Shown: positions 2,066-48,490 of the stretch, piece by piece
Numbering within the stretch: the first letter of the stretch is position 1
Layout: each line of letters starts with the position of its first letter
NCBI GenBank assembly: GCA_037043015.1
Contig: CM073327.1
Coordinates: 10,522,727 to 10,586,726, forward strand
Direction of reading: 5' to 3'
DNA length: 64,000 bases
DNA from: Bryum argenteum
Taxonomy: Eukaryota > Streptophyta > Bryopsida > Bryales > Bryaceae
Notes under the pieces: generated by a model
Database searches by the model: none
The model's input: only the letters and a program-made list of their open reading frames with translations
What the model was told of the DNA's origin: nothing
Program-made: the position numbers and the translations under genes

Positions 2066-2120
2066 AGATTAGCGTTAGATGCAGTATAGTTACCTAAAAG
2101 TCATCTATACTTACAAAGGA

Positions 2121-2230
2121 CACACGCTTGGACTTACTCTCTGTGCCAATGCAGAAAAGTATCGCAAAAGAATCAATCTGAAACGGGAAAACGAGTTGTT
2201 TGCTTACTTGTATTCTGTTTGATCACCATC
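2121..2230 (-). pseudogene. nucleostemin-like gene, start-codon end of an inverted duplicate
   Basis: This stretch is the reverse complement of about 31327-31460. It includes the start codon (complement of CAT at 2227-2229), the first intron and the beginning of exon 2. It continues on the far side of the piggyBac element as the duplicated promoter at 7213-7930. It ends within exon 2, so no protein can be made. The intact gene is at 31327-34118. Confidence 0.85.
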
Positions 2231-2585
2231 TTAACCCTTAAAGGCGCCAGTCAGCCCGAGGGGTTGTTTCCAGAACTTTAGGGGGGCCTACTGACGTCAT
2301 GCATGCACCGAATATTCTTGCGTTGGTACCGTTTTGGTCAGGACCACCTCCTCCGTCGAAAACAATTATCACCACTTCGATTGCTCTTGTATCGATTTTG
2401 CAATTGCAATCTCAAGCTATTCGGAGGCCCTCGCTCATGTTCGAGCTCCTGCCCGAGTGCGGCCATCGCCATTCTCCGTCTGGTTTCGAAGGAGCCAACC
2501 TCCTTTTCAATCACCGGTGTCAGAACGTAGTTGTATTTTTAGGTCGCTAGAGACAGACCGTTTTTTGGACTTTTGTGCAACGGTC

Positions 2586-3169
2586 ATGGCAGGTAGAAAC
2601 AGTGAAACGGTTGTGGATTGGGTTCATCGTCGCGAGCAACACCGTACAAGATTTCTCAATGAGTTTGAGAATTGGTTGCGTACTTGTCAAGGACAAGGTG
2701 ATTCCGGTGTCGCTGAGTGTTTCCGCTTACTTGATGAAACCTACCTGCTTTCTCTCCCACTTCCTAGAGGTGTAGTACTTCCTGAGAATCTTGGACCTAG
2801 AAATTTCATATTTTTGTTTAGAAGGAACGTCGCTGCTTTGTTGCGTTGGAAGGAACGAAGAAGTGAAGGAGATAGCAGTGGATTCTCTGATTCCATGAAC
2901 AACTACATTCGCGAAATTTGGTGGCCTGACAGTCACTCAGAAGCGCTTCATCGACGTGCACAGCTCGGAGGTAAACAAGCGATGGAGCAAAACAATTTGG
3001 TTTGTTTTCTTTCTTACTTCGATGTGTCAATGTGTCGTTTTCTAATTTATTCCATATACTAGAACCCCAAGCAGCCTTAGCACCTAAACAGAAGGCGGAG
3101 TTGCAGTGTGCTCTTATTGAAAGCTACATGAGCCAAGGTCTTGTCGATCAGGCAAATGAAGCCTTTTAG
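2586..3169 (+). CDS. unknown spliced gene carried by the piggyBac element
   Basis: Two exons, 2586-2970 and 3062-3169, are joined by a GT-AG intron that restores one frame of about 164 aa starting MAGRNSETVV and ending SQGLVDQANEAF. The open frame also extends upstream to about 2334, so the start is uncertain. The product is charged and probably helical (RREQHRTRFLNEFENWLR). No catalytic motif or known domain was recognised. It lies in the same orientation as the transposase and inside the same terminal repeats. It could be an accessory protein of the element, a captured host exon, or an upstream part of the transposase transcript. Function is not assigned. Confidence 0.45.
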
Positions 3170-3235
3170 AGACTACGCGACTTGCCGTTGGCCAGATATC
3201 GTACCCTCGGTTACAGAGCTTTGATAGCAATTATA

Positions 3236-3640
3236 GGGATTTTCACCATTGTTGGACTGTTGGACTGCTGCAATCATAGGGATTTTCAACATTGCTGGAT
3301 TGCTGGACTTCGATCATAGGGATTTTCACCAATGCTGGACTGTTGGACTGCTGCGATCATAGGGATTTTTACCATTGCTGGATTGCTGGACTTGGATCAT
3401 AGGGATTTTCACCATTGCTGGATTGCTGGACTTTGATCATAGGAATTTTCACCAATGCTGGAATGTTGGACTGCTGCGATCATAGGGATTTTTACCATTG
3501 CTGGATTGCTGAACTTGGATCATAGGGATTTTCACCAATGCTCGACTGTTGAACTGGTGCGATCAAAGGGATTTTTACCATTGTTGGATTGCTGGACTTG
3601 GATCATAGGGATTTTCACCATTGCTGGAGTGCTGGACGAT
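3236..3640 (+). repeat. minisatellite of about 40-bp units in an 80-bp alternating pattern
   Basis: About ten units each contain GGGATTTTCACCA followed by a TGCTGGA or GTTGGACTG variant and a GATCATAG boundary. Two unit types alternate (one with ACTGCTGCGATCATAG, one with GACTTGGATCATAG), giving a higher-order period near 80 bp. It lies between the small gene and the transposase of the piggyBac element. Confidence 0.85.
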
Positions 3641-3959
3641 TACAAGTTAGAAGGGCTTTTACTTGATTAGAAGATAGACTTAACTTGATAGGTATCGAAA
3701 TCAGTGGAAACGATCTGGTATTTTACTGAATCAACTAATCAGGATTTACATGTTAATAATCGGTGTAGGATGATTTGATTAGGTTAGGAGCACGCTAGAA
3801 TTTTATTGAACTAGTTAATCCACTTGAATTAACCGCATTGAGCATTTTACTTGTAAATTTGATTCGTAACCCTAATTCATCCCAAGGCTTGGGCAAGTGA
3901 ATGTTATTTAGTTAGACCACAGTCTCTTTGCCCTCATGCTCCTCATTATTAGTGATTGC

Positions 3960-6704
3960 AGGTCAATGCTGGGGCTGCATCGTCCGGTGCGCAAGCAAAG
4001 GATCGATCAGAGGCTTCGATCCTGGTGCAATCCTCATTGCCAGTGCTCTTGACGCCGGCGAGTGCCAGCGGAGGTCGCAACAGAGGTTCAGTAATTTGTA
4101 GCAGAGGTGCCGAGGTCATCCCCTGTTTCGGCTTTGCCATCGTTGGCACCAACGTTGCAGCCGGTGCATTCGTCCGTTGTTGGAGAGGTTACATTCATCG
4201 GACGTCCTGGAGCTCGACACCCTGTCCAACAAGTTGGAAGCCCTGGTGGCCAGCAGGTGCTAGGCCCAATCACACATGATGGACCCCCTCATCAGCAAGT
4301 TCGCCAGAGGTTACAATTGGGCGTAGGAGGGGAGTTGACATTGGAGCCAGTAAGTAAAAGAAAACGCCAATCAAAATCAAAAATTGCTCTATTCACTGGT
4401 GAGTCCTCTAATCCTCATGTGGATCATGATATGATTATGTTTGATGAGATGAGAAATTCTCAACTTGAGAATACCAATGCATTTATTGGTGGTTTGCAGG
4501 ATGAATTTGAAGAAGGTGAGGGCATGGAATCTCTCCTGCAAGCGCTCGGGAACGAAGAAATTTGTAGCTTAGATAGTAATCAAGAGATGGATTTTGAGAA
4601 AATTTGGGCATCTTCTTCTTTGACAAGAAGAAATGTCACACTTCGTTCCGATTCTAATATAAACTTACATGTACCATTATTTGACTTGGGTTGTTGTGGT
4701 TGGTCTTGTGTGGTCCCGAGATGTGAAATGCCTAATCTTATAATTCATGAAGATAGTGAAGCTAATTGTTTGGAATTTTTTTGGGGCACAGTAACTAATG
4801 AATTTTATGATCCCATGTTAGCTATAGACATGTTCACTATTTTGTTGTATGGTCCTTGGGGGTCTTTTGATGTGCCCGAAGAGGTGGTAAGGTTTGTAGA
4901 TGACAATGACGAATTTGCTAGTGTAAGTGAAATTCAATTATGGGGTCAACGTTTAAAAACCCCTAGTCCATCGCATAGCTCAAGTAGTAGTAGTGACTTT
5001 TCTTATTTACCGGGGCAATCGAATTCCAACTTATCTGATGATATGGATAAATTAGAATCTCTTGAATTGACCCCTAACTCTAAAAAATGGTTTATTCAAT
5101 CGTCTCAACCAACACAAGAATTAGGTTTAGATTGCGATTTGACATTTGAAGAATTTAGTAAATTATCTATTGGTTATAGATTTTAAGAAGGAATGTGGAA
5201 TAATCCATCCAAACAACTCCCTCCTATTATTTGGTTGGGGGGAAATCAAGGTTTAAAAGACCCTTTGTCAAATTGTCTCAGCCCGTTGGATTTTTTTTTT
5301 TGCTTTTTTGGCCCAATTCTATTCTTGTGAAAATTGTTAGGATGACTAATTTGTATGCGGCATCTAATTTAAGTGAAGGTAGGACACGTGGGGGAAGTAA
5401 GTGGGTTAGATTGACTGTAAAGGAATTATTGAAGTTCTTTGGAGTTTTAATGTTTATGGGCATAAAAAAATTGCCATGTGTTAGATTACATTGGACAAAA
5501 AAATTCATAGACTTATTTAGATCCGACGCTATTAGGAAACATATGACTAGAAAACGTTTTGAGGATATTCTGAGATGTATACAGTCACTTAGTAGATAAC
5601 AAAGATGTAAGTGTTGATAAAAATAGCCCACAATATAATAAATTGGCAAAAACCGAATGGTTAGTAGTGGAACATAACAAATTATGTAGTGATTATTATT
5701 TTCCTGAGCAAAATCTATGTGTTGATGAGATGATGATTAAGTATACGGGAAAATATGCTCCAATTAAACAATATATGAAGGCTAAGCCCACGAAATATGG
5801 TGTGAAAATTTGGTGTCTTGCAAATTGTGATTCTAAGTATGTGCAGAAAATAGAGATTTATTGTGGAGCATGTGACTCTCAAGAAGAAGGGAATGTTGGT
5901 GGGAGAACAGTTTTGAATCTCATGAAAAGTTTAGAAGGTAAGGGTCACATTGTCACTTGTGACAATTTTTTTACTTCTCCCACATTATTTTGGCAATTGT
6001 TGGAGCGTGGTATATTTGCTACGGGAACTTGCAGGACGAATCGCATTGGTTGGCCTCAAGCCCTCACCAATACACCGACATCGGGAACCCGAGGACAATT
6101 GTGGTATCGGGTGCATGCTAGTGGCAAAATGTGCGCTGTCACATGGTTTGATAATAAACCGGTATGTTTACTTTCAACTGCTTGTAGTCCTATTGATTCC
6201 ACAAAGTCTTTGTTTATTAGCCGTTGGCATGTAGGGGGTCACATCCAAATTCCCGCTTCTCCCGTTTTATTGCACTACCAACAACATATGCGTGGAGTAG
6301 ATGTCCATGATCAATTGCGTGGTTATTATAGTTTGCAAAGACGTGATCATAAATGGTGGCACAAATTTTTTTTTCACATCCTAGATCAATCGTTTTTGAA
6401 TGCATTTATTTTGTATAAAATGGCCATGGTGCTTAGGGGAATTAAACCAATATCACATTTAGAGTTTTATGTTCAAGTTGCTAACGCCATGACTTACGAG
6501 CCAAAAAAGATGCTAACATGTATGCCAAGGGCCTCGGTGCCAAATCCAGGCAAGTTACACTATACCATGGCATGGTCCGGACATGAAACCCGTAGCCGAC
6601 GTCATTGCGTTGTATGTAGGAAAGTTCAACAATTTTATTGTCCCACTTGCAATGTGGCAATTTGTATGGGAAATTGTTTCGTTATTCATCATTCCAAGTA
6701 TTGA
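3960..6704 (+). pseudogene. piggyBac transposase (DDE_Tnp_1_7 type), frame-damaged
   Basis: Homology runs through three frame segments: about 4107-5300, about 5300-5580, and 5601-6704. The first has an in-frame TAA at 5184-5186. A T-run near 5290-5305 shifts the frame, and a second shift near 5580 restores it. The C-terminal half is open and well preserved. It contains the acidic residues expected of a piggyBac DDD nuclease: CVDEMM (codon 5724-5726), TCDNFF (5961-5963) and RGVDVHDQ (6300-6302). It ends in a cysteine-rich zinc domain (HCVVCRK, FYCPTCN, MGNC). The N-terminal third (from about 4340) is acidic and serine-rich, as in other members. A possible 3' splice site precedes 3960. Read as it stands it cannot make a full transposase unless introns remove the lesions. 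A polyadenylation-like AATAAAATAAA follows near 6760. Confidence 0.85.
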
Positions 6705-6719
6705 GAACAACTAGTTTGA

Positions 6720-7208
6720 TTTATTTTTTTTGTATATGTAAATCTTTGAGATTTCATGAATAAAATAAACTACAAATTTTTTTATGGTGCTATTGTATTT
6801 TTTAGATTATGATTTATGAGACTATATATCATTGGGCACTCATCCCACTCTCTCTCTCCCCCACCCATTAGTGAAAATTTTAGTCCTCATCTCAGGCCCA
6901 TTCAGTCCTTCGCCCATTCAGTCCTCTGTCAGTCATACTACAAGAGAAAAAATAAAAAAGAAAAAAACAGAGGCAAGACAAGGAAAAAAAACAGAGGGGC
7001 TTGGAAAAAAATAGAGGAGCTTGGAAGTTGCAGGTCCCATGCCCATGCCCGACCTCGCAGGTCCCAGCCCGCGCCCGTGTCTGGCTGCTCAATTCAACTC
7101 CAGGTTTGAAGCACGCCTTCTGCATTGAAGTCGCAGGCTGCCCCTGCTCCATAAAGTTCTCTTTTTTATTCCGGGCTGCCCGCCCAAGACTGTAAGGACC
7201 TTTAAGGG
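6720..7208. other. 3' non-coding end of the piggyBac element
   Basis: After the transposase stop come AT-rich sequence, a CT-rich run near 6846 and a GC-rich segment. It ends in the right inverted repeat ACCTTTAAGGG next to TTAA. No coding signal was found. Confidence 0.6.
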
Positions 7209-7212
7209 TTAA

Positions 7213-7930
7213 CTGCCTGCTAATCGCAATAGGAGAACTTCAAAGTCGATCCTGTCGGAGCTTGATTGAATTGAAGTTGAATCCTTGAAGCTCCAACGAT
7301 GATTGTGATTGTGAAGTCGTTAAAGCCTAAACCCTAGAGCTTCAGCCCTCACGCAGGTCTCCTGGGTATGTGGCTACCGGGTATCTGGAAGCGGATATCC
7401 TGGATTTTTAGGACATCAGCAGCGAGTTGCTCCAGACACCCCAAATCCAAAAAGTTTCTGAGGCAGATTTTCGAGGTTGCTAGCATGGTTACCGGAGTAC
7501 AAAAATTTCGTTATTTTGAATATAGATAGATAGATAGAAACTCCGGTCCTTTCTAAGGGGCCGGCGTGAATGAAGTGTCCGTTTGTAATGCTAATATCCC
7601 GATGGCCAGCGGACAAGGGGAAATTAGAACAATACTACTTCCCCTTCTCGAGGGTGGACACTATAACTACGCTAGTTTCTAGCCTAGTTACTAGTGCCTC
7701 GAAGATACTCGTTATTTTGAATATATATATTTAGGTTTGATACTATATGTATTTCCATATAACTATTTATTTTGACACAAGTGCGGAATGTTCTCTATAC
7801 TTTGGTAATCATGGTTGTAAGAAAGATGCTTTTAGCTAGTGCTTTTAGTGTAGGAGGTGTACCGTTCAAAATTCAATCAACATCAAGATTTGTTTAGTAA
7901 GCTAATTGGGCTGGAGAAAGATCTTATCAT
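7213..7930 (-). pseudogene. inverted duplicate of the nucleostemin promoter/5' UTR
   Basis: Reverse-complement homology to about 30830-31325 extends over the whole segment, including the CCTAAACCCTAGAG telo-like motif near 7327. The duplicate is separated from its start-codon end (2121-2230) by the piggyBac element. Relative to the parent it carries an extra block of about 200 bp (7509-7710), flanked by direct copies of CGTTATTTTGAATATA. Confidence 0.85.
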
Positions 7931-9058
7931 GCAAGTCTATTTTCAAATGAAACCTTGATGCCATTTTAACAGAATCGAAATCATTATAATTTGACGCTTT
8001 ACATCATCTATCTACTTGAGAGCACACCACTACATGCAATCTTTTCACCATGATGGGTCCGTAAATGATGCGATACCCGCTTGAATCTAGCGATGAATAT
8101 CAACCACGTATATCTTTGACCTAAATTTGAACTTGAACGCCTCCTACTGGCACCCTTTATATTATACATAAATAGAAAATCAACAACTACCTACAAAGAA
8201 ACGGAATGAATATACAACTAATCCACTAATAAACTCCTCTAAATACTTCAAGATTACATAAGTTTCACAAGCATTACATCAATATTAGAAATTTCGCATG
8301 TATATTACATTGATGTCCAATGTGTTATCACATGAGTGTTGTCAAAGTACTACCAATTGAGTATTATAATGAGGTTGATTTATATTGTGATTTATCAAGG
8401 ATTGGACCTATTTGGAATCGAAGTAAGACTTGGCTTTAACACTACTTTATATAGTAGGCCTTGAATTAGACCTTATATTTTACCATGCATATCCATACTT
8501 TGAGGTTCCATATTGGAATTTCTACTTTACATTGGTTCTTTCAGTAGGTTTGGATACATTTTATATATAGTATAAAGACCCAACCTACTAGGCCGAAGTT
8601 GTTCATAGATTGAAGCTTACGATACAAAGTCCTAGGCTTGATTTGAAAGGTCCAAAACTTGTTAACTAGGCTCTAGTTCAATAGTGGGTTTCTACACTCT
8701 GAAGAGACTTAAGTCTTCGGCTAGGGCGTTTTTGTTTCCCTCCAAAACAATATCATATTATGATGTCAATCGCCATATGAGTTTTAGGAGAAAAGGTTGG
8801 AGACTCAAATAGAATCTTTTGGGCCTATGTTAGAATGCAAGTGACCAATAGAACCATGCCTATAAGTTGACCTCAAGATTTGGAAATTAGTCTCTAGTGT
8901 AAAGTGCCTTGATTTACAAAATGATTTTATAAAATAATCTAAGAGACTAACATATAGGTAGAAGGGCAAATGTTTTTGGAGGTGTCGAGTGTGGCTCGGA
9001 TAACATTTTTTAAACATGAGTTCTAAATCAAAAGGCAAACACATTAAAAGAAATCATT
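7931..9058. other. intergenic, no gene recognised
   Basis: AT-rich sequence without convincing exons or terminal repeats on either strand. Confidence 0.5.
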
Positions 9059-16899: not shown

Positions 16900-18690
16900 T
16901 TTCAATACACTGCTTGGAAAACTTTCTCATTTTGTCAACCAGTGGGTTGAGGGTTTGGACTCCCATAATATGATAGTGATATTAACATTTTCTTTCTGCC
17001 GATATTACCTGCTATTTATCTCTATCATTTGGTGTACATTAAGGAAGATCATATGCAAATGACCATGTCCATTATTTGGCAATTACAAGTGGAATTCTCT
17101 TCCAGTATTACACAATTCGAGAGTCTACGGGATGTTTAGATTTTTGGCTTCATTGAAAAATTAACTTTATATTAGTATTGAAGAACTCTCAGTGAAAGAA
17201 CTATGTGTGATAACCTTGAGAGTATCTATGTCCAAAGTTTAGGAAATAATGGACAATTTCCACGGAGACTTTGACCACAGTGATCATGATGGCCCTCGAA
17301 AGGAAGACTTTCACTTCGACACACTGGGACCTTCAGCAATTCAATACACTCTTCAACGTCGAAACTGCAGCTGCATTTGGAATTTCACGGCTCCATAAAA
17401 CATGCATCACTTACAATCTATGTCGCATCCGAACCTCCTGCTAGACGATGGGTACAAGTTGTCATGAACAAGAGTAACATTTAGACACTGATCATTTGAC
17501 ATCTTAGAGTCCATTACATTTTCACACCATACCATAGTTACCATGACAGGATTCAACGGGAGGTTCAATCCGAGTTTATTGCGTACAAACTGGTACGAAT
17601 TTTAAAAATAAAATCCGTAGGGTTTAAAACACAATAGTATAATACTAATTTCATAAAACCGGAGTTTCTATCTATCTATCTACTAATTTCATATGAGTAT
17701 TGAATTTGTTTCAAAATAATTGAAATACAAAGGCAATCAAATATGAATTTATTCATGTTCATCTTATAATCAATGTTAAGGCTTAATGTGACAAGTTTGC
17801 ATTACTTTTACTTAACGTAAAATACAAAGAATATTGTAACTATGATTCATAATCAAATCTCCACTTATTATATTTGGCTGTCATCGTGAGCGCATGGCAG
17901 AGAAGAATCGGAAACATGACAAACAAAAACAAGCGCTTTAAAGTGATAAACGAGAGCATCAAGAAGCAAAGTTGCAATGACAAGATATTTGAGATGAACA
18001 AGGTGGTGACCTTTTAGCCGAGGGCCTTGACCTTCTAGCCTAGGGTCGTGAGGTTAATGTTCAAAAGTAGTGAGTATGATAGAGTAGACCTAGTTCATTT
18101 CTTAGCCATGTTTAGCAAATCTTCAAGCGAAGGCCATCATTTATTTAACAAATGATGAAAGTAAGGAGAAGGAAGAGAAGATAAGAGAGCGATAGTCTTC
18201 CAATGACAGTATGACACCATCTTTACAAAATCTAAGAGTATCAAAAAAATTATCATTGTATAAGTATCAAGAACTTTATCATTTTCAGGAATGAGAAATT
18301 GAGAATACCAAAGGATGACAAACAGGAGATGAAGAAAGAAAATAGAGAGTTATAAAATCATTTTATAATGATCACCATCTCAAATCTGAATATAATTGAA
18401 TTTATTAAGAAATATGTGTAATATTAACTCACGACATGTTGCAAATAATGACTTAAAAGTCATTTATAAATTATAATAATAGTAAAATATATGTCTTCGA
18501 ATCTCAAAAAATAAAATCTTGAATGTATAATATATTTATGTCTACTTATCTCCAATATAATTTTATATTAAGATGTATTTAAACATTTATGTGATATATG
18601 TAATCATAAGTTACAACATGTTGCACACCATGCCTTACTAATTACCTATATAGATAAATAAACATACACATTTATAGATTTAAGTATTTA
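16900..18690. other. non-coding interior of the 9.1-kb insertion
   Basis: AT-rich, no gene recognised. A TCTATCTATCTA tract with flanking CGGAGTT near 17660 is the inverse of a tract at about 7525-7550, suggesting a small shared repeat. Confidence 0.45.
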
Positions 18691-19273
18691 ACCCCTAAAG
18701 ATCCTTGGGTGTTTTTGGGAGCTTAAAACCTCAAAACTCCAATTCTCTACCTCTATGCACTTCAAGGGGTGCGAAACAATTTTTTTATTCTTTTCTTAAC
18801 TTCCAACCGTAAGATCTTGTACCTAAGCCAATTTTCAGTATCTGATATAAAAATTGACCGTTGGATGTTTACCATTTGAGAGATTATAACATCCAAAGTT
18901 TGTCTATGAAGTTTTTTTGGGCATTGTTGAGATTATTTTTGACACTTTTGGAGGCTGCCCTTGTAAAACTGGTACACTTTTTGACTTGGGGCCCTTTGGA
19001 ACTTAAGTAGTGATTTGGTCATGAACATATTTCCAAAAAAAAATCTCAAAAAAATACTAAATTTAAACTGCCCCAGTTCGGCTCGCAAACCAAGAATTGT
19101 TGTAGAAGACTCAAAAATTGGAATTTGGCTTTGTAAATTTTACCACATACACTTTGCAGTATAGGGAGCACCCATTAAAAAATTTAGGCAAAAATATCAC
19201 TTTTAACCTATTCATCTAAGCTGCCCAAAATAGCAAAAGCCCGATTTGGTCCTCTTGGATCTTTAGGGGTTAA
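18688..19273. mobile_element. TTAA-type MITE, 578 bp
   Basis: TTAA at 18688-18691 and 19270-19273 flank inverted ends CCCCTAAAGATCC (left) and GGATCTTTAGGGG (right), a perfect 13-bp repeat. There is no coding capacity. It is nested inside the 9.1-kb insertion. Confidence 0.88.
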
Positions 19274-20876: not shown

Positions 20877-23800
20877 TTGCACTATAAGAAAACCATCGAA
20901 TTTTAGATGTCTTAAGATTTGGGTAGATCACTTTTAAGATGTCTTGCTATCTTGCAAAATGTCTTGTAAAATGGGAATATATATTGTCATTTTGAAGATG
21001 TCTTCAAGTAGGAGTGTGGGATGCCTTCGAGACATCCAAAGATACATGGATGTTTTATAAGCTGTCTATTAAGACATCGCGTTAAACAAGAAACTGCCAC
21101 GTTGGCAAGAAATTCCGGTTTCACCAAGTAAAAAATTCTGAAAGTTACCGATACGGGGGTAGAAAGTAGCCCGGTTGTAAAAAAAACATGATAATGGGCA
21201 GCGGTTTGTAGGAGGACAAAAAAAGGAACTTCATTCTTTCAAATACTCTTTTGTTATATGTGCATTATAATTTTATTTTATTTTATGTGCATTATAATTT
21301 TATTACTAAAAATATTGAAATATGAATTTCATAATATTAATCTTGTAAATTCAGATTTTTTCATTGGTCCAATTTTTATAATAATATTCAAATATTATAA
21401 TTTATTTTAAATATATATCATATGAATATTTGAGAATATTTTAATAATAAATATTAATAAAATCAAAAAAATATTAAAATATTAGAAAATTATTATTCAA
21501 TTAGTAAAATAATTTAGTTAGCAAATATAGTTATTTAAATATATACGGCAATTTTCGCATATTTATGAACGAAATTATACGTGGATATTTCATGAATTTT
21601 ATAATTTACAGTTGTTTATCTACATGGTAAACAAAAGTCCACGTCGGACGAGAGTACATGTCATACAATGTCTATGCAGTGTCTTCGTAGACATTTAAAT
21701 AGATGTCTTATAAAACATCTTAGAAGACATTGTGTTATTGGGATGATTTTTATCAACTTCAGTGGATGAACAGAGGCGGCTAGGGTTTGTTGCTGCCGCC
21801 ATAGTTAGGTCATAAGACTTTTAAGTAGAAGTAGAGGCCACACGAAGCTCATTTTTGCCTTTAATTTTTGAAGGAGTTGGTGTTTAGAGTGTAGAGGCTA
21901 GGGTTTGCTTCTTCATGTAGTTAGGGTTTGTTGCCGCCACCATAGTTAGGTCATGAGACCTTTAAGTAGAAGTAGAGGTTGGACAAAGCACATTTCTGCC
22001 TTAGTTTTTTTAAGGAATTAGTGTTTGAAGTGTAGATGATTTCAAAAAAATTTCTATTCGGTTTAAAATTATTGTTAACCCCTAAAAATCCAGGAAAGCC
22101 GATTCGGTTTTCTGAGATTTCGGGCAGCTCATTTTAAGCATTTAAACTGATATTTTTGCCTAAGATTTTTATTGGGTGCTCCACATGCAGTAATGTGTAT
22201 GTGGTAAAATTTTCAAAGTCAAATTTTAATTTTATAACCTTCATCTAGAAATTTTAGGTTTCAAGTCCAAATCGGGCAGTTTAAAATAATTTTTTTTAAT
22301 TTTTTTTTTTTTAGAAATATGTTCATTACCAAATTACTATTCAAATTCCAATGTGTCCGAAGTCAAAAAGTTTACCAATTTTACAAGGGCAGCCTCCAAA
22401 ACTTTCAAAAACAATCTTCACAATTTCTAGTAATTTTACAATTTTTCTTTCAAAAATTGCCAAAATTCGAGATTTTGGATTTTTTCCAAGATTTTTTTTT
22501 TCAAAATTCACATTATCATAAATGCACCTTCTCACCGTCGAGATTTTTCTCAAACTAAATATATCATACGTGGTGCTTGTTTTACTATATGGTTGTTTTT
22601 AGACCTTCTTTCATAAAATATTTTACATTAAGGTCAAAAAGTGGAATTGGTCTCTAAAATTTTGCATGAGCATAACCAACTTGAATACCTACATGAAAAA
22701 AAATGAGGGAAAAATATTTGGAATAACAATCATCAAGTTGCCCTTGGCACCATTTAGACAATGCCTCTCACGCAGTGGCAAAAAAAAAGTGTTGGTCAAA
22801 CTTTGATTGTTATGATCTCACAAATGAAAAACATCCAACGGTTGAAATTTTGACCAGTCCTTTGTATACAAGTTAGGTACAAGATCTTACGGTTCAAAGT
22901 CTAAAACCAGAAAAAAAAGTTTCTCCATTTCCCCATCTCCCAACGAAGGTGAAAAATGGCAGTTTTTGGTTCTGGAGGTCGAGGAAACCCCTGGATTTTT
23001 AGGGGTTAAGTACAATAAGAGAATAGTAGTTGCAGAGAGAGGCACGAAACTTGAGAGTAACTAGATTTCAAAAGCATCATGTACAAAAAACCCTAGGACT
23101 TGTAGTATTTGATTTGTTGTGGAAGAAACCTTAAAACTTGTTATGGAAGAAACTCTATGACTTACAATATCTGCTTTGTTATTGAAAAAACTTTGAAGCT
23201 TGATTAGTTGTGGTTGATAACGTGAAAATGTCATCAGATGTCTATGATGATGTCTGTGCAGGGATGTCTCAGAGTATGTTTATGAAGATGTCTAAAAGGA
23301 TGTTTAATTGTGTTGATTGAATTCTGTTTTGTAGGGTGGAACATGAGGGGTCAGGGTCCCCGTACGGTGCTAAGGAAAGCTTAAAGAACACATGAACGTA
23401 GAAGTATGCCAAAGTAAGTGAGTTGTTGTTTTTTCTCAACTTTAGAGAGGCGGCAAAACACAATCTGAGGCCGCAAATAGATGTCTGCATGGATGTTTAT
23501 GACGTTGTCTTCAATGATTTCTTCATGGATGTTTATGACGTTGTCTTCAATGATGTTTTCAAGGATGTTTTCAAGGATGTCTTCAAGGATGTCTTCAACG
23601 ATGTCTGCCTGAATGTCTATGCAGATGTCCGCTAGAATGTCTAACTGTGTCGATATCTTGAGGTTATGATGAAAACTATATCAACCTAGGTAGTGCAATT
23701 AAATGGAACTAAATCACAATTTTTTGCCTTTACAAACCCCTTGTTTAAATGTAGTCGATAATGACTTATTGAACATGTGCAGCGGCAGGACATGCACATG

Positions 23801-30200: not shown

Positions 30201-30825
30201 CCTTTAAAATGGCACTATTTCAAGAAAATGACAGGTTTTGGGGTGCTCAAAATGAAACAGATAACATAGATTTTGTTGGTTCTCAACCTTTAAACACTAT
30301 CAAGAAGAAAATTATTCTCGTTTAAAAACAAAGACGTTTTGGGATGACCGCTAACTAATAAATATTTTCAAGACAACAAAACATTTCTCAACGGCCGTCT
30401 AAAAAGGACAATATTTCTAAAGTGTAGTTTATAAATATTGCCCTTTGACTGCTTTTTACAAAAGCCAAAATTATCAAATTGTATAATATACGAGACTTTT
30501 GATAATATTATAGAAATAAGTTGATAGCATGAAGGTCATGCCAGAAACTAAAAACATGCCGTTTTAGAGGCATAACTAGATGTGGAGGCCACTAAAGTGG
30601 CATGTATTTCAGCGGGGGCCAAAATGGCACATTCGAGTTTGCCAGAAGTCAAGCTCATGGAACAATGTCATATCAACACAAGTGAGGTTGTTTTCTTTTT
30701 ATCTACTTGTTTCATAACATAGGCAATTGCAATGTGTAGCTTGAGTTTCCCTCAACACTTAAGTAAAGACTTGCAAATGTTGGCGAGTAAAAATGGCGTT
30801 AAGTATACATCTGGAGATAGACTTG
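27250..30825. other. gene-poor stretch, nothing recognised
   Basis: Only short frames occur on either strand. None has recognisable motifs or consistent splice signals. Parts such as 27400-28600 look like old degraded sequence. The stretch ends where duplicate-related nucleostemin upstream sequence begins. Confidence 0.45.
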
Positions 30826-31199
30826 AATGCTAAGATCTTTCTTTAACCCCATTTGGCTTACTAAACAATTCTTAATGTTGATTGAATTCTAAATAGTATA
30901 CCTTCTACACTAAAATCACTAGCTAAAAGCATTTTCTCTACAACCATGATTACCAAAGTACAAAGAACATTCCGCACTTGTGTCAAAATAAAAAGTTATA
31001 TGTAAATACATATAGTATCAAACATAAATATATATTCAAAAGTACCAATGTCTCCGGTAACCGTGCTAGCAACCTCGTAAATCTGCCTCCGAAACTTTTT
31101 GATTAGGGGTCTCGGCTACTGATGCCCTGAATCTTGGATACCCTGATTCCAGATACCCGGTTGCCACTTACCCCGGAGACATGCCTTAGGGCTGAAGTC

Positions 31200-31214
31200 T
31201 AGGGTTTAGGGTTT
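31200..31214 (-). promoter_or_regulatory. double telo-box upstream of the nucleostemin-like gene
   Basis: TAGGGTTTAGGGTTT, the complement of AAACCCTAAACCCTA, lies about 115 bp before the start codon. Telo-boxes are known plant promoter elements enriched upstream of ribosome-biogenesis and translation genes, which fits a nucleolar GTPase. The duplicate at 7327 retains a single-copy version. Confidence 0.6.
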
Positions 31215-31326
31215 AACGACTTCACAATCACAATCTTCACTGGAGCTCAAGGATTCAAGCGCAATTTAATCAAGCTCCGACAGGACCGACACCGAATTCT
31301 TCCTATTGCGATTAGAAGGCAGTCAA

Positions 31327-34118
31327 GATGGTGAACAAACAGAATATAAGTAAGCAAACAGCTCGTTTTTTCCGTTTCAGATTGATACTTTTGTGATGCT
31401 TTTGTTGATTGAATACTTCGAATTGGCGCAGAGGGTAAGTCCAAGCGCGTGTCGATGAAAAAGAAGAACAAAATCCTGAAAAAGGTGAAGCTGCACTGCG
31501 AGAAGAAGGCGAAGGAAGCGCGCAAGTTAGCTCACAACAAGCCGAAAGCTAAGCAGGAACATGATTCTGAGGAACAGATTGCCGCCATGCAAGCCCGGCG
31601 TGCTCGCGCCCTTGAAAATTTCGAGCTCAATCAAGCCGCGAAGAAAGACAAGGTAATCACAATTCATACCGATGCGGTACATCTCTTATTTTTGTACTTT
31701 TCCAGAAACAAAAATATCGAGTCACTGAGATCGGTTGTGAGGTCCAAGTGTTTAAATAATACCTTACTTATCGAGATGGGACAGAATTGCTTAAATTGAG
31801 ATGGACTTTCCGATGAATAATTTGAAGATTAGTTCATTTTAGTTTGCGCAATCGCTTATTTTTCGAGCGAAAATTTCGTAGGCTGCTGCGAAGCGAAAGC
31901 TCGGCGAGGATGAAGGTGCTACTGACCTAGCGCAGCTGGCATACAATGCTTCTATGAGGGCTTTCGACTTTGAGAACTCGAAGAAGCAGAGAGTTGATAT
32001 GGTTGGTCCTCAAGGTATACTACCCATCTGCTTGTGGCTATGCCAGCATCTTTATTTTCATTTTAGGGTTGCGCTTATGCGACTGTGTCGTGTTTACAGA
32101 GCATTCCAGAAGGCAATTTTACAAAGAGTTCATGAAAGTGGTGGAAGCATCGGACGTTATCATTCAGGTGTTGGATGCAAGGGATCCTCTAGGCAGTCGA
32201 TGTATGGACGTTGAACGTATGGTTCATAAAGCTGGAGGTCTCAAGCGCATCGTGCTTCTTCTCAACAAGATTGGTACCTTTTGTAACCTAATTCATCCTG
32301 TTGATATTTTCGTGACATGTTACTTAGTCAATAAGTGGTCTGCAGATCTTGTACCTAGGGAAGTGACGGAGCAGTGGTTGAAGTATCTTAGAGAGGAGCT
32401 ACCAGCTGTTGCTTTCAAGTGTAATACAGCGCAACAGCGAAAGAACTTAGGAAGGAAGTCATTTGCTAATGCTACCGAGAATCTAGACGTTCTGCAAGGC
32501 AGCGACTGTCTTGGCGCAGAGACTCTATTACAACTCTTAAAGAATTACTCAAGAAATCAGAAGGTATTGATTCTTTTCGGGATTGATCCCGTCTAATTGA
32601 GTCTCGTCCGTTTCAAAAGTAATTATCTGCAGGTGCATATAGTTTCTATTGTGTTCTGTGTTCGTGTACGTTTGGAGAGATGAAAGTTGTGCTTGTTTGT
32701 TGCATGTGCAGATGAAAACAGCAATCACAGTCGGTGTGGTAGGGTTCCCAAATGTTGGAAAGAGTAGTCTAATTAACAGTTTGAAGAGAACACGAGTGGC
32801 CAATGTCGGTTCTACACCAGGTGTCACCAAGGCAATGCAGGAGATTCACTTAGATAAGAATGTGAAGCTACTAGATTGTCCTGGAATTGTGTTCGCAGCA
32901 ACTGGCGATAACGAGGCATCTGCCACTCTCCGAAATTGCACTAAAATTGAAAAGCTTCCAGATCCTGCTACTCCAGGTAAACTTCCTCAGAGGTGGAGGG
33001 ACTTTTGTTTGTCAGATTCAATTGTCTTTGATTCTCCTTGTAATTGCTAAATATCACACCTGCTTCTATTGTCTGCTGTCTGAACTCTACTTCATCGACC
33101 ATTCAGTACATTTTTGGAAATTTGTGTTTTGAACGGTACTTTGTCTTCTTTTAATTAACAGTGAAAGAGATATTGCGACTGTGTCCTGCCGACAAGTTGG
33201 TATCTATCTACAAGATCAACAACTTCAACGATGTGGATGAGTTTTTGATGAATGTTGCAATGGTGCGCGGAAAGTTGAAAAAAGGAGGTGTGGCGGATAT
33301 ACTAGCAGCAGCCCGCATTGTGCTGCATGATTGGAATGAAGGTGAGTCACATAAGTGAAGCAAAAGCTACCTCCTATGATGTGTCTTAAGAGATGAGCGA
33401 GTACATTACACTCCTGATTTGTCTCCTTCAATTTTTTAGTTTTGCATGGAGGCCTTTTGCTATCTTGCCTTAAAACTTGTCAAGCATTTTTGTTCAGGAA
33501 AAATACCATACTTTACAACACCTCCTGTTCGGGAAGTTAGCGAGCATGCCGAGTTTGGAGCAATCGTAACAGAATGGGGCAAGGAATTTGACGTGGAGGA
33601 GGTCTTTCAGAACGAAACCACTGCTGTAATAGCTGGTCTTCCATCTATGGCGGACACTTCACATGTCCAGATGCCGTCAACTGCTCCCCTCGCAATGGAC
33701 ACGAACATTTCTATGGTAACCAACGAACTTAGCTTGGTGTGCCTGGATATTTGATGACCCAGTTTTAGCACTCAAACCTACCTCACTTCTTGCGCAGGCT
33801 ATGGAAGACGGGGACAGTGAAGAAGAGGAGGAGGATATGGATGAGGGTCCCAGCATGATGATGGACACAACTGAAGTAGCTGTGAAACGAGGTAGAACTT
33901 ATCTGAGTCAGAACGAGAGACTGTACGATGCAGAAGGCATTCAAAATCCACATGCCAAGCGAGCACAGAAGAAGCAGAAGAAGAAAGCGGCCAAGGCTAC
34001 TGCTCCAGAGTTCAGTAGCGATTCCAAAGCGTCTGATGACTACGACTTCAAAACAGATTACATCGACAATAATGACTCGGAAGGTGAGGATGAGGATGCA
34101 ATGGAGGGCATCAACTAG
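31327..34118 (+). CDS. NSN1: nucleostemin-like nucleolar GTPase
   Basis: Nine exons (31327-31348, 31432-31652, 31882-32014, 32100-32273, 32346-32563, 32712-32976, 33162-33341, 33498-33715, 33798-34118) join through GT-AG introns into a 583-aa protein, the usual length of plant nucleostemin-like 1. The basic N-terminus ([14 protein letters not shown], coiled-coil-like KKAKEARK) suits nucleolar and RNA binding. The GTPase motifs are in circularly permuted order typical of the YlqF/YawG group: DARDPLG 151-157, NKID 181-184 (G4), then GFPNVGKS 267-274 (G1) and DCPG 311-314 (G3). The acidic, lysine-rich tail ends DEDAMEGIN. Known role: pre-60S ribosome maturation in the nucleolus and, in Arabidopsis, growth and development. 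The 5' end and promoter are duplicated in inverse orientation at 2.1-7.9 kb. Confidence 0.95.
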
Positions 34119-38415: not shown

Positions 38416-38453
38416 GGATTTGTTTCATCTGCCTGTGTACGCATTCTTTCGGC

Positions 38454-40901
38454 ATGGGGAAGGAAGTAAAACATCAGGATTCTGATATTGTATCTGAGGA
38501 CAGGTTACAAGGGAAGGAATTCGAGAATGTGCAGAAATCGCTCATCAAACCCTCGACAGCGACGCCGAGCGAGAAAGAGTGGTTGGAACTCGCGGCTTTA
38601 GACTTGATCTGGGTGCATTTTTACACTCCTGTACTCTGCTTCTATAATCTCACTCCGGAGACGAGTGTCGGCGTGGTGCAACAGTTGAAGGATACACTTG
38701 CTGATGCGCTTGTGTTGTACTATCCTCTTGCTGGAAGAGTGTTTGGACCCAAGGATGGTAGACCTGCTAGTATCCACTGCAACGATGCAGGTGCTTTGTT
38801 CTTTGAAGCGAGCGTTGATATCGAAATGGCTGCGCTTAAAACCGAGGACTTCCATCCTCAGATGAAACTGTCCGGTATGCCTGCTGCGGGGTTTGGCAAT
38901 TACCCTTCGCTTCCTCACGTGGAGGATGGCCTCCCTGCTCTCATCATCCAGGTTCGAGTCCTTGTAGCCCATTCCAGTTCAATCCGGAGTAAGTTTCAAA
39001 CTTTGGAGTGTACGAATGGTCCTTTACAATTTGAAAAAGAAAGAAGAGAGTACACACTGCTGCTGATGAAGATCTCAAAAGTTGCCAAATTTTGTAGGTG
39101 ATACATGTTTTCAGTATGAGTAGCTGGAGTGCTTGAAACTAACACACATGTTTCTTGCTTCCTCAGGATCAGAGATAGTCTCAAGCTTAAGTGGTATGAG
39201 TGTACTATATGGTCTCTGCTTCGAGAGTACATAAAGGCTATTGATGAACGATTAAAAGGTTAAAAATTGCTTACTGAGCAGATTGGTTGATCTTTTGGGG
39301 TAACATTTTTAAGTAGTGCTGTCGGGCGTAAATTTCATGTTTTCATTATAATTAGCCCCAACACGTTTCACTTATATCTCTTTCAAGCTTCCTCAAGATC
39401 GCATTAAGACGCAAGTTTAGGTAGTATGGAGTGTTCCAACATGGACTTTCTCAAAAGAGAGTGCATAAATGCGGATTCAATACGATCGATAGTAGTTTAC
39501 TGAGCAGGATGCGTGATGGTGCAGGTGACACATTTGAAGTGTGGTGGTATCACACTGTGAGTAAACTGGTCACACGCGGCAGGAGATGGACTGGCGGGGT
39601 TTAATTTTGTCAAGTCCTGGTCGGAGATAGCAAGAGGATTGGAGGTTTCTCTGCTTCCCGATCATCGGCGTACGGAGCTTCTGAAGGCGAGTGAGCCATT
39701 ACCGGAGTTTAATTAAACAGCACCCTTTCATCACATCGGGGTATATCTCACTGGGTGCTCAGTTGATCGCCGGCAAGGTGAAGCCACCACCTAATGACGG
39801 TGCTGACAAAGCTTCCGTACTTGCATCGAAGACAATCGAGTTCAGCAAGGATGAGATTGCTAGGCTGAAAAAGCAGGGCAAGGGGGGTGGGTAGCAGCAA
39901 CTGTCGCGTGCAGATTGTCTTTCGAATCATGTATTGCGTAGCACTGCTCGAGTTCGTAACCTGCAACCTGAGAGCCCCAGTAAGTCCTCACAAACACTTG
40001 CATTCATCGTATGTTAAAGTCATTGTTTAAGTATGTCATATTGTACAGAATCAGGGGTGACATAGGAGCCTTATTTTCCAGGCCTGCATATCTTCTTTCT
40101 TTCTGCGAAAGCTTCTGAGTCCACTTTGCAAGCTGACTGATGATCACTAAGAGGGAGTTTTCTGGGAAGCTGACTGATGCGTTAATAAGTCCACGAATTT
40201 GATGAATCCAGTTCCTCTCGGTTACCGGAACATCTTCCATAGTGATTAGTTTAACACTTTCGAAGCTGACTGCTGATATAGTGAACTTACAAACATGTTG
40301 CTCAGCCTAATATTTACTGAATATCTTTCTTCATGATTAGTTAAAACTTCTGTAGACATGAAAGTGACCATCCACATCATGTTACTGATATCTGTGCACA
40401 TTGTTCGATGCAGTTCGGCTAGGCGTGCACGTGGAAGGAAAAAAGCCGTTATCACTCCCACCAGGCTACTTCGGCAACGCAATCAGTCTGCTCTGCGTAG
40501 TCTTCTCACGGGACGAGGTGCTAAACCGGCCATTCAGTACAACAGCCAACATAATACACAACGCAGTGGCAACAGGAAGTACGAGACACTGGTACCAGAA
40601 CATGATCGACTTTATAACTCACGGCGTAAAAACGGGTACAATTGGGCCAGTGCCGGAGGACGAGCGGTTTCCCGGCACGAAAAACGTGAGCACTTCGTAT
40701 CTGAACCGGTTTCCTTACTACGAGCTAGACTTCGGCTTCGGAATTCCTGCTTACTCAGTGCGCAACACCATGGGTGCCAGAGAAGGCCTGTTGTTCGTGT
40801 GCCCTAGTCCCCATGGGAAAGAGGATCTATCTGTCATGGCCAATATGGGCTCCGATCACATGCCCAGCTTCCTCTCCATGGTTCGTGATATCCCTGAGTA
40901 A
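38454..40901 (+). pseudogene. BAHD acyltransferase copy 1, disabled
   Basis: The three-exon layout matches the intact copy at 44401: exon 1 38454-38951, exon 2 from 39525 to about 39975, exon 3 40414-40901. Exon 2 contains TGA in place of a Gly codon (ITL-stop-VNWSHAAGDG, near 39558), an altered stretch with an added in-frame TAA near 39713, and a TAG before QQLSRADC near 39892. The HAAGD and DFGFG motifs remain, and exons 1 and 3 are open. An extra partial start, split off by a MITE, lies just upstream. The first 360 nt of exon 1 are almost identical to copy 2, while later exons differ clearly. Confidence 0.88.
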
Positions 40902-42032
40902 GCAGCCATTGATTTTGACCTGGTTTGTGTTGTCTCGATCAACCTGTTTTTGACGGACTAGCGTTTTTATTGTGTATATATACGAGCATGAGCTCAGTAT
41001 CTTTAACTTGGAGGCTACGTGTTCGCTGTATACTGTGCCACAGAGGAGTTGTCTATATTTTGCACTTCTATTGTTGTACTTTCTTATCATTGGTTGCTAT
41101 TTGATCTGTTTAAGGTTGGATGATCTTTTCAATGTGAGTCGCAGGTGCATACACGTGAATCAGCTTTCTGGAATAGCAGTAAAGTAGGGAACATTTTTTA
41201 GAGAGGATTGATGGAATTTATTGAGAAATCATTGCATTTAAGGTACAGGCACCTATAACGGAGAACTTAAGCATTTGAGCATGGAGTGGCTGTGATTATG
41301 AAGGAGCAGTTATTTTTCCTTTGTAGGGAAATAAGGTTCATGAAGAATGGAAATTTTTAATTTTTTTTTCAAGGAAATCTGAAATTACTACAAATTTTTG
41401 AGTCAAAAAGTAGCCCAGACACACAACCGCCATATAGCTTCACCCATTTTGGATAGGAATAAAAGCAGTGAAGGAAAATCCATTGCTGAGAAACCATAAC
41501 AGACATCATGCAAATGGAGCATGGAGAGAACCTTAAACGGACAAGTCTGGACCACAAAGCTAACTTAGAAGCCCCCAATTCTAGCCATAGCCATATTTCC
41601 GTATTTGGTAATTAGCAATTTCCGTATTTGAGTGCACCAGTTTCGGCTACCTCCCCTCCACTATGAGATCATGCACCGCACTCTTGACGGATAAAATTAT
41701 CTCTTTTTGGTTCAGCCATGCGCGGCAGTGAGAATACCTACTTACCGGTCATGGGGGTGCTAACTGGTATGGGTGTCTGTACCTTATGATGCGGAACCTA
41801 AATGGTGGCCTCTGTTAATCCTTAAACGCCCATGGGGTCTGAAATGGGCAGCCCAAAATTGAATCACAGTATCTTTTGGACTTGAGCATCATGAATAGTG
41901 CACTTTTTGAACATGGGCATCATGAGTGAACCAATCAATCATGAGCTTGCAACCTCCTACAAGGTTATGTACAACCCCAACCTAACTACCACAATCCTTT
42001 CAAAGCACAAAATCACTCATACAAATTGTGAT

Positions 42033-42402
42033 TTAACCCTTAAACGCCCGAGCAAGCCCGAGGGGCTTGATTCCAACAGAATCTTCCCTGTAGCTCTCAT
42101 TGTACTCAACGTTTCACTTATATTTTGATGTCAAACTGGTCACCTTCTTCTGATGCATTCAAAAAGTGAATTTTCACAAATCAAAACACAATTTGTATGA
42201 ATGATTATTTGGTTTGAAAGGATTGTGGTAGGTAGGTTGGGGTTGTACATAACCTTGTAGGAGGTTGCAAGCTCATCATTGATTGGTCCATTCATAATGC
42301 CCAAGTTCAAAAAGTGCACTATTCATGATGCCCAAGTCCAAAAGATGCTGTGATCCAATTTTGGGCTGGCCGTTTTAGACCCCGAGGGCGTTTAAGGGTT
42401 AA
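42033..42402. mobile_element. TTAA-type MITE, 362 bp, nested
   Basis: The element spans 42037-42398, with ends CCCTTAAACGCCC and its inverse and TTAA on both sides. It carries AGCCCGAGGGGCTTGATTCC just inside the left end, resembling the subterminal sequence of the piggyBac element at 2253. Confidence 0.9.
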
Positions 42403-42631
42403 CCCTTAAAAGTCCCTTGGGGATAGTATGTACGTTGTCGTATAATTAGGATTTGCTGCCAACAAGAAACTCTAAACTGGGATTGTAATAGCTCACTAGA
42501 ACCGCATTAATTCAAATGTCAACTTCTTCTTTGAACTCAAACCCATTAAAGGTGTGCATTCACTCCAAATACAACCAAAATACATCGTATTCTACTGGTC
42601 GCCACAACACACTCAGACCTTTAGGGGTTAA
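42399..42631. mobile_element. TTAA-type MITE, 225 bp, nested and adjacent
   Basis: The element spans 42403-42627, with ends CCCTTAAAAGTCCC and AGACCTTTAGGGG. It shares the TTAA at 42399-42402 with its left neighbour, so the two inserted at one TTAA in succession. Confidence 0.82.
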
Positions 42632-42856
42632 ACTGTAAAATTTCACTTTTTGAATACATCACAAGGAGGTGACCAGTTTGACATCAAAATATAAGTGAAA
42701 AGTTCATTACAGTGAAAGCTACAAAGCAGATTCTATTGGAAAACAACCCCTCGGGCTTTCTTGGGCGTTTAAGGGTTAAAAGGTAACAGACCTTTCTTCA
42801 TTAGAATTTAGGACGTTACTGTACAGCATTCTTGGTTATTTAGACAAAGTCATTTT

Positions 42857-43722: not shown

Positions 43723-44400
43723 GGGCACTATACACAAAGCGCGCGAGAAGAGGCCGCGCTGAAAGGCAACGTCAAAACCAGCAGCCCAATGTTGTGACGT
43801 CCGCTCCCTGCTTTATGAACGAGACAGTGTCGTGTTTACCATGCAGAACATTCAAAAGCACGCTTTAGAATTTATGAAAAAGAGATCTAGACCTCAATAC
43901 CGCCATCTCGTAGAACCCTAGAAATCACTTTGATTGAGGTAAATCTGCCCCGCCCTTGAAAATGGCTCCACTGGTAAAGAATTAGTACTATTCGATTCCA
44001 CAAGCATTTTCCTCGTGCTTCCATTCTCTACAGAAGACTCTGTTCTCTACAGTGGTTGCAAGACGCGAGAACGGGATGATGACTCATTCTAGAAGCTCCT
44101 ACTTTCAGTCAGGTCTGTATCACCTGCACTATGTCTACGAAAGCATTAGAAAATTTGCAATTTACTTAGGTTAAAGGTCGTCTCCGTCACCAGACTTAAT
44201 GCGCTTTTGATGTCGTATAGTTGTAGGTGGTACGTGTCAGTAGCCGTACTTGAATGCATTCAACTTTCGTGGGGAGCCAGTAACTCGATAAATATCGTCT
44301 AAAGAGCTCTGTGGAACAATTTGGTCAGGCAGAGCAGGTGTTTTGCACTCGCCGTTAGAACTTAGTTTGTTTCCCCTGCGCGTGTTTGAATCCTTTCAGG

Positions 44401-46988: not shown

Positions 46989-46989
46989 G

Positions 46990-48490
46990 CAACCATTGTT
47001 TAGCGATTTTATATTTTTTGTGTATACGAGCACGTGGGCACTATTTTAAACTTGGAGTTACGTGTTCGGAGCATACTGTGACACAGATGTGAAAGAGGTT
47101 GTCTATATATATGCCCTTTTTTTAGTGCATAATTGATGCTTTCTATCATTTTTCGCTTTGAGCTATTTCAGGTTGGATGAAGTTTTCAATGTGAGTTTCA
47201 GGTGTTTACACGGGGAACATGCTGCCTGGAAAAGTTTTGAAGTAGGAAACAGTTTTTAGAGAGGATTGATGGCATTTATTGAAGAAAGCATTGCATGGTG
47301 GCCACTCATAGATATAACAGACCAAATTGTGTCTCTTTGTTGGGAGAAAACTGCTTCATTAGCTCTGAAGGCAAAGTCGTTTTTTAGTATGTGGACAGAT
47401 GTTTATGGTGTCGAGTGCACATCGTACCATTCTTTTTTCATCACAAATGTTGGGATGAACACTTTATACAACACCGGTCAAAAATGAAACACCCCCAGTC
47501 ATCTTCGTTCGAAGATACATAGAGCTTCCCCATACCACGGTACTGTATATTCACTACCAACATTACAGTATAGGGTGCCATTCTAGGGCATCATTTTAGA
47601 AAACCGAGGTTTCCACCCTCAATAGGTTGTAAACCCATGCGGAGAAATTATGGCTTCTAATCACAAACAAGATGAGATACACAAGTCCCTCTTGTGCACA
47701 GGCTCCCTTGTAATAGGGGTTACAAGTATATCATCCACAGCTTCCTCTGATATTGAGTGTCATCTCTCTTTTTTATGATTTTTGCCAATGTTCGAGATGG
47801 TCAATCACCTGCAATGAGGACAATGCACCAAATATTCCCTCTCCTTGTGAGGCACCGCCTCCTTATCAGGGGATAAATTTGGTGTATTGCCCTCTACACA
47901 ACTCATTGTTGATGATGAGTCCAGGAATGATGATTTCACTTGCTTTAGCTTTCCACTAATTTTCCCCATATACAAAAATTGCTTGCACTAATTTTCCCCA
48001 TGCACAAAAATTGCTTGCACCAGTAACATCCCTGGAGATCTGATGCGAACAGCTCAATATATAGTTGCTTAACTTTGGACCACATTGAAATAGACAATGT
48101 AGAAACCATTTTGAACTTGAAAGACTGTCAGATCACTATGCCCCGTCATACTGAAAGGCCTTTCCCAACGTTTTCTGAGTTTTCGATAAGATCACCAAGT
48201 ATATAACATGTATGTGGAGTCAAAATTTGACATCAACAATACAACAATTATTATACTTACGCTTAATCCTGGCTTTTTGACCACCTACTAGAACAATACC
48301 ATTAATTGATTAGTGATATTAGTTTGAAAAAATCACGTAATGTAAAATAACATCAGTTCACCACGTATAACAAGTTCAACCACTGACCCATCCCACATCT
48401 GGTCATAAACTGGACAAGAAACGTTTCAAAGGCAAGTGTTGCAATAAGAAATGCTCGAGTTCATACACCTAAATAGTTAAGAGTGAAATG
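46990..48490. other. intergenic between BAHD copy 2 and the membrane-protein gene
   Basis: It contains the BAHD 3' flank (still similar to 40900-41220) and a tandem of about 32 bp around TTTTCCCCATATACAAAAAT near 47952-48018. A 73-aa frame at 47266-47487 has no recognised motif. Confidence 0.45.

Follow-up and report, generated by a model that had tools for sequence, protein, structure and literature searches.

A decayed piggyBac-like transposon and its relatives in the genome of the moss Bryum argenteum

We analysed a stretch of 64,000 nucleotides of the Bryum argenteum genome (assembly GCA_037043015.1, contig CM073327.1, positions 10,522,727 to 10,586,726 of the forward strand), hereafter called the window, and describe an element at window positions 2231-7212 which, as judged from its sequence, is almost certainly a decayed, formerly autonomous cut-and-paste transposon of the piggyBac superfamily. 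The genome comprises 258.8 Mb in 25 contigs, and the window is part of contig C7. Elements of the piggyBac type are known above all from animals and serve widely as a genetic-engineering tool; in this plant genome they seem to form a large, varied population that shows signs of recent movement. Within that population the window copy is an ordinary dead member, and the interesting part is the abundance of the elements and the architecture of their transposase.

Results

The element is flanked on both sides by a TTAA target-site duplication, and its ends are short inverted repeats starting with C's, as piggyBac terminal repeats do, perfect over 10 of 10 bp (Table 1). The repeat CCCTTAAAGG, its reverse complement and each 14-mer that includes TTAA were found once apiece in the window. 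Genome-wide, TTAACCCTTAAAGG occurred 1,132 times (583 + 549) against 4 (1 + 3) for a control with reversed letters, so the ends of the window element are not due to chance; this search for ends beside TTAA had been proposed in a preliminary description of the stretch.

Inside the element, the DDE_Tnp_1_7 profile (PF13843, cut-off 22.4 bits) matched 5643-6701 (7.8e-50, 170.6 bits) and 5231-5596 (1.5e-18, 67.7 bits). The phmmer hits in the PDB at E <= 1 were 6x67, the piggyBac of Trichoplusia ni (1.3e-19), 9c0f, the piggyBat of Myotis lucifugus (5.2e-19), and, insignificantly, HIT1 2n95 (0.85). Both significant alignments cover the VDE (D 5724), CDN (D 5961) and GVDxxD (D 6300 and 6309) blocks, and the first three aspartates align with what we take to be the catalytic residues of the T. 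ni enzyme. Cysteine pairs start at 6606, 6639 and 6663, in a cluster spanning 6606-6677, and form a C-terminal cysteine-rich domain that aligns partially with the same two chains; no Pfam zinc-finger model exceeded its cut-off for this region, and zf-HIT reached 0.37 in the relative L045. The preliminary description is thereby borne out in that a plant genome here contains a piggyBac element with both ends present, catalytic blocks and a cysteine domain, and the profile search that it proposed gave a match.

The transposase gene of the window copy is not intact and contains one stop and two frame shifts, which the preliminary description thought might be removed by introns. A search for intact sister copies was also suggested there as a check; among 20 fetched relatives, four (L045, L048, L053 and L055) had an uninterrupted main frame of 867-900 amino acids (aa) over the homologous region. 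The window DNA was aligned with L045 over 2,589 columns at 84.8% identity without an intron-sized gap. Because these relatives read straight through the positions in question and the L045 alignment is free of such a gap, the stop and frame shifts are, on this comparison, lesions and not introns, and intron rescue of the broken frame was rejected.

For the wider population, all genome counts are lower bounds. The PF13843 search of the genome gave 776 first-look candidates, of which the best 116 were scored; 116 of 116 lay above the cut-off, 93 had a stop-free match (a share biased upward, since the scored hits were the best scorers) and 54 had open frames of 800 aa or longer, while the same search in 14 control genomes returned no hit. 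With the core of the window transposase as protein query, the best 115 of 777 candidates were scored and gave 119 matches including itself, the others at 97% to 39% identity. When both lists were pooled and matches less than 1.5 kb apart were merged, at least 191 transposase loci remained. Scored hits were present on every one of contigs C1 to C11 (C1 to C10 measuring 16.8-44.1 Mb, and C11 being the smallest of the eleven). Within this genome the window copy is not a rarity, given the 776 candidates and the 7,077 end sequences reported below.

Three full-length sisters agreed with the window element over aligned columns at 96.9% (L043), 95.8% (L041) and 94.9% (L044). No match was found between the 280-bp flanks of any of the 10 full-length elements tested, so the sister copies are separate insertions, and the transposase domains of L061 (on C4) and L062 (on C8) showed 0 differences over 1,149 bp. 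We take this agreement as a sign of recent movement, along with the near-identical 233-bp copies and their unrelated flanks described below. The ratio of non-synonymous to synonymous substitution rates (dN/dS) of the core was 0.04-0.13 in five distant pairs, rough values since the synonymous rate (dS) exceeded 1 in four of the five, and 0.19-0.71 in nine close pairs; these ratios suggest that the core is constrained in the long term and relaxed in single copies.

Some further features of these elements were observed. L049 and L054 differ with a dS of 0.014 in the core and 0.24 in the N-terminal region, a contrast that exchange of segments between elements could produce. Positions 3532-4511 of L041, in its oriented form, hold a stretch of 980 bp whose ends differ from TTAA-CCCTTAAAGG by 1-2 mismatches, probably a nested insertion. 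Contig C1, the largest at 44.1 Mb and 17% of the genome, has few piggyBac sequences, with 94 of the 5,945 TTAACCCTTAAACG ends, 8 of the 1,132 TTAACCCTTAAAGG ends and 5 of the 116 scored transposase hits versus 19.8 expected; it also holds 0 of 132 listed protein-kinase matches (best 126 of 1,786 candidates scored), and would be a gene-poor chromosome, perhaps a sex chromosome.

The two 14-bp end sequences together occurred 7,077 times versus 8 for the reversed controls; TTAACCCTTAAACG, the end of several relatives, accounted for 5,945 occurrences versus 4 reversed. Among the matches listed for TTAACCCTTAAAGG, many ends were paired 233 or about 369 bp apart (sizes including TTAA) and represent small non-autonomous elements. 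The best 40 of 935 candidates for the 233-bp type were scored, and all 40, including the query, were 98-100% identical, 39 at full length and one spanning bases 1-226; four additional partial matches were at 83-91%. Flanks of 200 bp were mutually unrelated in 7 of 7 fetched copies of this type, and 15 equal-length pairs of fetched copies averaged 98.2%. For the 369-bp type, the best 40 of 1,575 candidates were scored; apart from the query, the 39 copies among them were 95-97% identical, a few being short by up to 7 end bases, with four neighbouring matches at 81-82%. Over 39 and 45 bp, this type is 82% identical to the ends of the window element.

The ends of 13 of the 21 full-size elements (the window element and its 20 relatives) were compared; L042, L047, L051, L052, L054, L056, L059 and L060 were excluded as having one end missing, ambiguous or outside the fetched stretch. 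TTAA was present on the left in 13 of 13 and on the right in 12 of 13 (TTAG in L053), and all 13 start with TTAA-CCCTTAAA; ends were located by the TTAACCCTTAAAGG pattern including TTAA with up to 2 mismatches, and their likeness and the TTAA count are therefore partly a matter of selection. For L050, the left end that was paired to it is probably that of a small element nearby. A GCCC...GGGC near-palindrome lies 15-32 bp in from the left end in most of the 13 (it is disrupted in L043), and GGGCAGCCC lies about 26-36 bp in from the right end in 10 of 13, with L041, L045 and L048 lacking it. These subterminal motifs may be binding sites of the transposase.

Small relatives are also present elsewhere in the window and had been overlooked in the preliminary description, as had the N-terminal coding region and the minisatellite listed in Table 1. 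Positions 41814-42779 form a nest of three small elements with piggyBac ends. One, of the 369 type, is interrupted at its TTAA by a 370-bp element (42033-42402), which has a TTAA in common with a 233-bp element (42399-42631); once joined, the two outer halves match the fetched copy L014 from one end to the other at 89.7%. The stretches 737-1054, 18688-19273, 22075-23009 and 53598-54032 have TTAACC/GGTTAA ends or similarity to the 369-bp element and are probably more non-autonomous members of related families.

The product of the N-terminal coding region recurs in 16 of the 20 relatives at 54-92% identity, and no match was found in the fetched stretches of L042, L052, L056 and L060. Among 11 chosen pairs its dN/dS was 0.12-0.35 in seven, dS was saturated in three, and the pair of window and L041 gave 0.80; on these ratios the region is evolving under constraint. 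Genome-wide, the best 150 of 377 candidates were scored, a few being two pieces of one locus, and at least 90 of them had a same-strand transposase within 7 kb downstream versus 2 within 7 kb upstream. The region precedes the transposase at no fewer than 87 of the 191 loci; unpaired matches on either side are uninformative, as both lists hold the best-scoring part only. It had no Pfam match at 0.5 in any of three sequences tried and no PDB match at 5 for the one relative's copy tried, and structure prediction from the single sequence of the window copy gave a mean predicted local distance difference test (pLDDT) score of 46.9.

The insertion lies in a duplicated 5' region of a nucleostemin-like gene. 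The flanks, joined by a single TTAA, aligned with 30991-31500 over 461 columns at 80.5% identity without a gap at the junction, and the flank alignment to 31296-31330 on which the preliminary description relied is seamless. An empty site in the same window had been claimed there: that the flanks join and align near 31.3 kb stands, and the site itself is not an allele. Because the flanks are about 80% identical and the right flank (7213-7527) is found genome-wide at two places only, itself and the nucleostemin-like paralogue at 81%, the alignments identify the site as a diverged paralogous duplicate (about 20%) of the gene start; an allelic empty site was rejected on these grounds and on the TCAA found there, and the joined-flank alignment compares a paralogue, not an excision product. 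The duplication probably predates the insertion, since identity is 95-97% for the full-length sisters and about 80% for the flanks. The name nucleostemin for the gene at 31 kb is our assumption; Pfam found there only a GTPase of the ribosome-binding type (MMR_HSR1, 2.5e-17, at 32649-33047), and its first coding part had no Pfam match at 0.01.

Among the neighbouring features, a Saf4/Yju2 splicing-factor fragment at 1739-2062 (3.8e-29) adjoins the element, and part of its coding sequence appears to be repeated internally. A tandem duplication (38419-41237 and 44366-47296, 79-94% by segment) contains an acyltransferase-like gene. Rfam and transfer RNA scans of the window gave 0 hits each.

Table 1. 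Features of the piggyBac-like element and its insertion site, in window positions
Feature	Positions	Strand	Basis
Left flank: duplicate of the nucleostemin-like gene start (ATG side), parted from the 5' leader by the insertion	2119..2230	-	79.5% to 31453-31322
Left TTAA target-site duplication	2231..2234	.	sequence
Left terminal inverted repeat CCCTTAAAGG	2235..2244	+	10/10 bp, end comparison, genome-wide end count
Left subterminal near-palindrome CAGCCCGAGGGGTTG, counterpart to the GCCC...GGGC motif of relatives	2252..2266	.	end comparison
N-terminal coding region, 139-aa frame with about 117 aa conserved; putative first transposase exon	2586..3001	+	recurrence in relatives
Internal minisatellite, overlapping periods 83/123/206	3233..3637	.	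Tandem Repeats Finder; repeat matches in sisters L041, L043, L044
Upstream part of main transposase frame, ending in the disabling in-frame stop 5184-5186	4107..5186	+	open reading frames; relatives read through
Start of DDE_Tnp_1_7 in shifted frame; breaks near T-run ~5288-5300 and ~5585-5600	5231..5599	+	open reading frames, PF13843
Catalytic core (D 5724, 5961, 6300; further D 6309) and cysteine cluster 6606-6677	5643..6704	+	PF13843, 6x67
Right subterminal motif, CGGGCTGCCCG on +	7172..7182	.	end comparison
Right terminal inverted repeat, reverse complement of CCCTTAAAGG	7199..7208	-	end comparison
Right TTAA target-site duplication	7209..7212	.	sequence
Right flank: duplicate of the region upstream of the nucleostemin-like gene	7213..7970	-	81%, 86% to 31326-31028, 31041-30787
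Uninterrupted paralogue of the nucleostemin-like 5' region, with TCAA at the position homologous to the insertion	30787..31453	+	alignments

Discussion

By the mechanism of the known piggyBac superfamily, which we take over here, a DDD transposase with a C-terminal cysteine domain would bind both ends and cut the element out, and the excised element would join at TTAA and duplicate only those four bases. In this way the window copy would have entered a TTAA one base ahead of the ATG in the duplicated nucleostemin-like 5' region. Since it carries one stop and two frame shifts, it could presumably no longer make its own transposase; because its ends are intact and resemble those of the small non-autonomous elements, the enzyme of a sister could in principle still mobilise it.

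That the window copy is a domesticated or still functional gene, from which introns excise the stop and frame shifts, has in its favour the open core at 5643-6704 with intact aspartates and core dN/dS values of 0.19, 0.28 and 0.31 against L041, L043 and L044; we nevertheless give it very little credence. The single uninterrupted frames of four relatives and the L045 alignment speak against introns, one break lies inside a long T-run, and dN/dS rises to 0.65 in the core against L042, beside the N-terminal value against L041 given above. The ends and target-site duplication are preserved as in a transposon, and the state found, ends kept and frame broken, is the reverse of a domesticated gene, in which the frame is maintained and the ends are lost. 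Contamination from an animal or other source, or a very recent single horizontal arrival, might come to mind because piggyBac is best known from animals, and is likewise very improbable: every contig from C1 to C11 carries scored hits, the window copy has plant genes as neighbours, and dS above 1 in four of five distant pairs points to several lineages that have long been diverging. Two genes in the window are of plant character: a uL3 gene of plastid type, with best PDB hits 4v61 (2.6e-55), which we take to be a chloroplast ribosome, and 5mlc (5.7e-55, named chloroplastic), and a gene like hydroxycinnamoyl transferase, an acyltransferase-like gene of plant kind. Contamination was rejected on the spread of hits, the many candidates and these plant-type genes. 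In searches for relatives outside plants, the viral contigs contained no pattern match, and 23 stretches of prokaryotic genome contigs fitted the pattern, none of them a relative by tblastn. Three observations weigh against our reading of a decayed element in a recently moving population: the main frame is shorter or broken in the remaining 16 of the 20 fetched relatives, the identity of L061 and L062, compared over the domain only, may come from segmental duplication, and the site homologous to the insertion is TCAA, not TTAA.

The best reading of the conserved frame at 2586-3001 is that it would form the N-terminus of the transposase, separated from the rest by an intron in some subfamilies (groupings by identity, not by tree). 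It could instead encode a second, separate protein of the element, which we regard as unlikely. An in-frame TGA stands directly after the frame in 11 of 14 printed loci, no splice acceptor of the proposed intron could be fixed when sought, and no conserved coding stretch was found between the region and the main frame in the six pairs compared, all as a separate protein would have it. However, the TGA of those 11 loci is part of a GTGA donor-like motif in the same phase (the phase was computed for three of them), a motif absent in L041, L043 and L045, the relatives closest to the window. Moreover, in seven distant members the region is part of an open frame of 500 aa or more and is followed by a transposase match, which shares its frame in five members and not in two; two of the five have open reading frames of equal length for both parts (C8:13617065/13618709, 1,059 aa; C4:3820183/3817684, 994 aa), which argues for the N-terminal part of one transposase.

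The T. ni piggyBac (6x67) shares with the window element the DDE_Tnp_1_7 domain, the aspartate blocks, partly aligned C-terminal cysteines and the TTAA target, and is distant in sequence; its chain has 594 aa versus the 867-900 aa of the main-exon frames in intact relatives here, which also differ from it in the extra conserved N-terminal region, the CCCTTAAA ends and the GCCC/GGGC subterminal motif. The core of piggyBat (9c0f) aligns similarly and its cysteine region weakly, but its chain has 578 aa and comes from an animal. In the parts of the literature available to us, piggyBac is described as targeting TTAA and excising without trace (PMC5505980, PMC8086355), and piggyBat as having ends of simple 15-bp inverted repeats (PMC8086355). 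PiggyMac and other piggyBac-derived proteins have the core in common with the elements here, but they are domesticated genes, whereas here a flanked mobile element contains decayed code; an N-terminal domain of 220 aa is given for PiggyMac in the sections available (PMC8086355). Miniature inverted-repeat transposable elements (MITEs) of plants are, like the 233- and 369-bp elements, short and flanked by target duplications; unlike them, the elements here carry TTAA and piggyBac ends. As far as the consulted sections go, a 2025 survey of 207 plant genomes assigned MITEs to five superfamilies plus a single special group, and piggyBac is not among these (PMC12550479), and a term count over its full text found no word starting with piggyBac. 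Piggybac-like elements in plants are mentioned in general statements (PMC10140906, PMC8086355, in the excerpts available), a 2008 grapevine paper lists, in the passages available, only five other superfamilies as then described in plants (PMC2528002), and the accessible part of a fern annotation counts 1,230 PiggyBac pieces of 122 kb in a table (PMC6890710). Within a literature coverage that was partial, and in which an earlier description of plant copies is possible, we found no description of piggyBac elements native to mosses; one paper that looked relevant (PMC10619864) contained merely the word piggybacking.

Taken together, we lean slightly towards the view that this plant hosts a large, recently active piggyBac radiation with its own transposase of about 1,000 residues, whose N-terminal domain would be under purifying selection, has no Pfam or PDB match and would form a separate exon in some subfamilies, and that its small TTAA-inserting elements would represent a piggyBac class unlisted in the current plant MITE survey. 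With its many open transposase frames, thousands of ends and small copies that barely differ, the genome would offer a setting in which piggyBac can be studied in plant chromatin, and it raises the questions of whether plant repeat surveys misfile TTAA elements and of what role the extra N-terminal domain may have.

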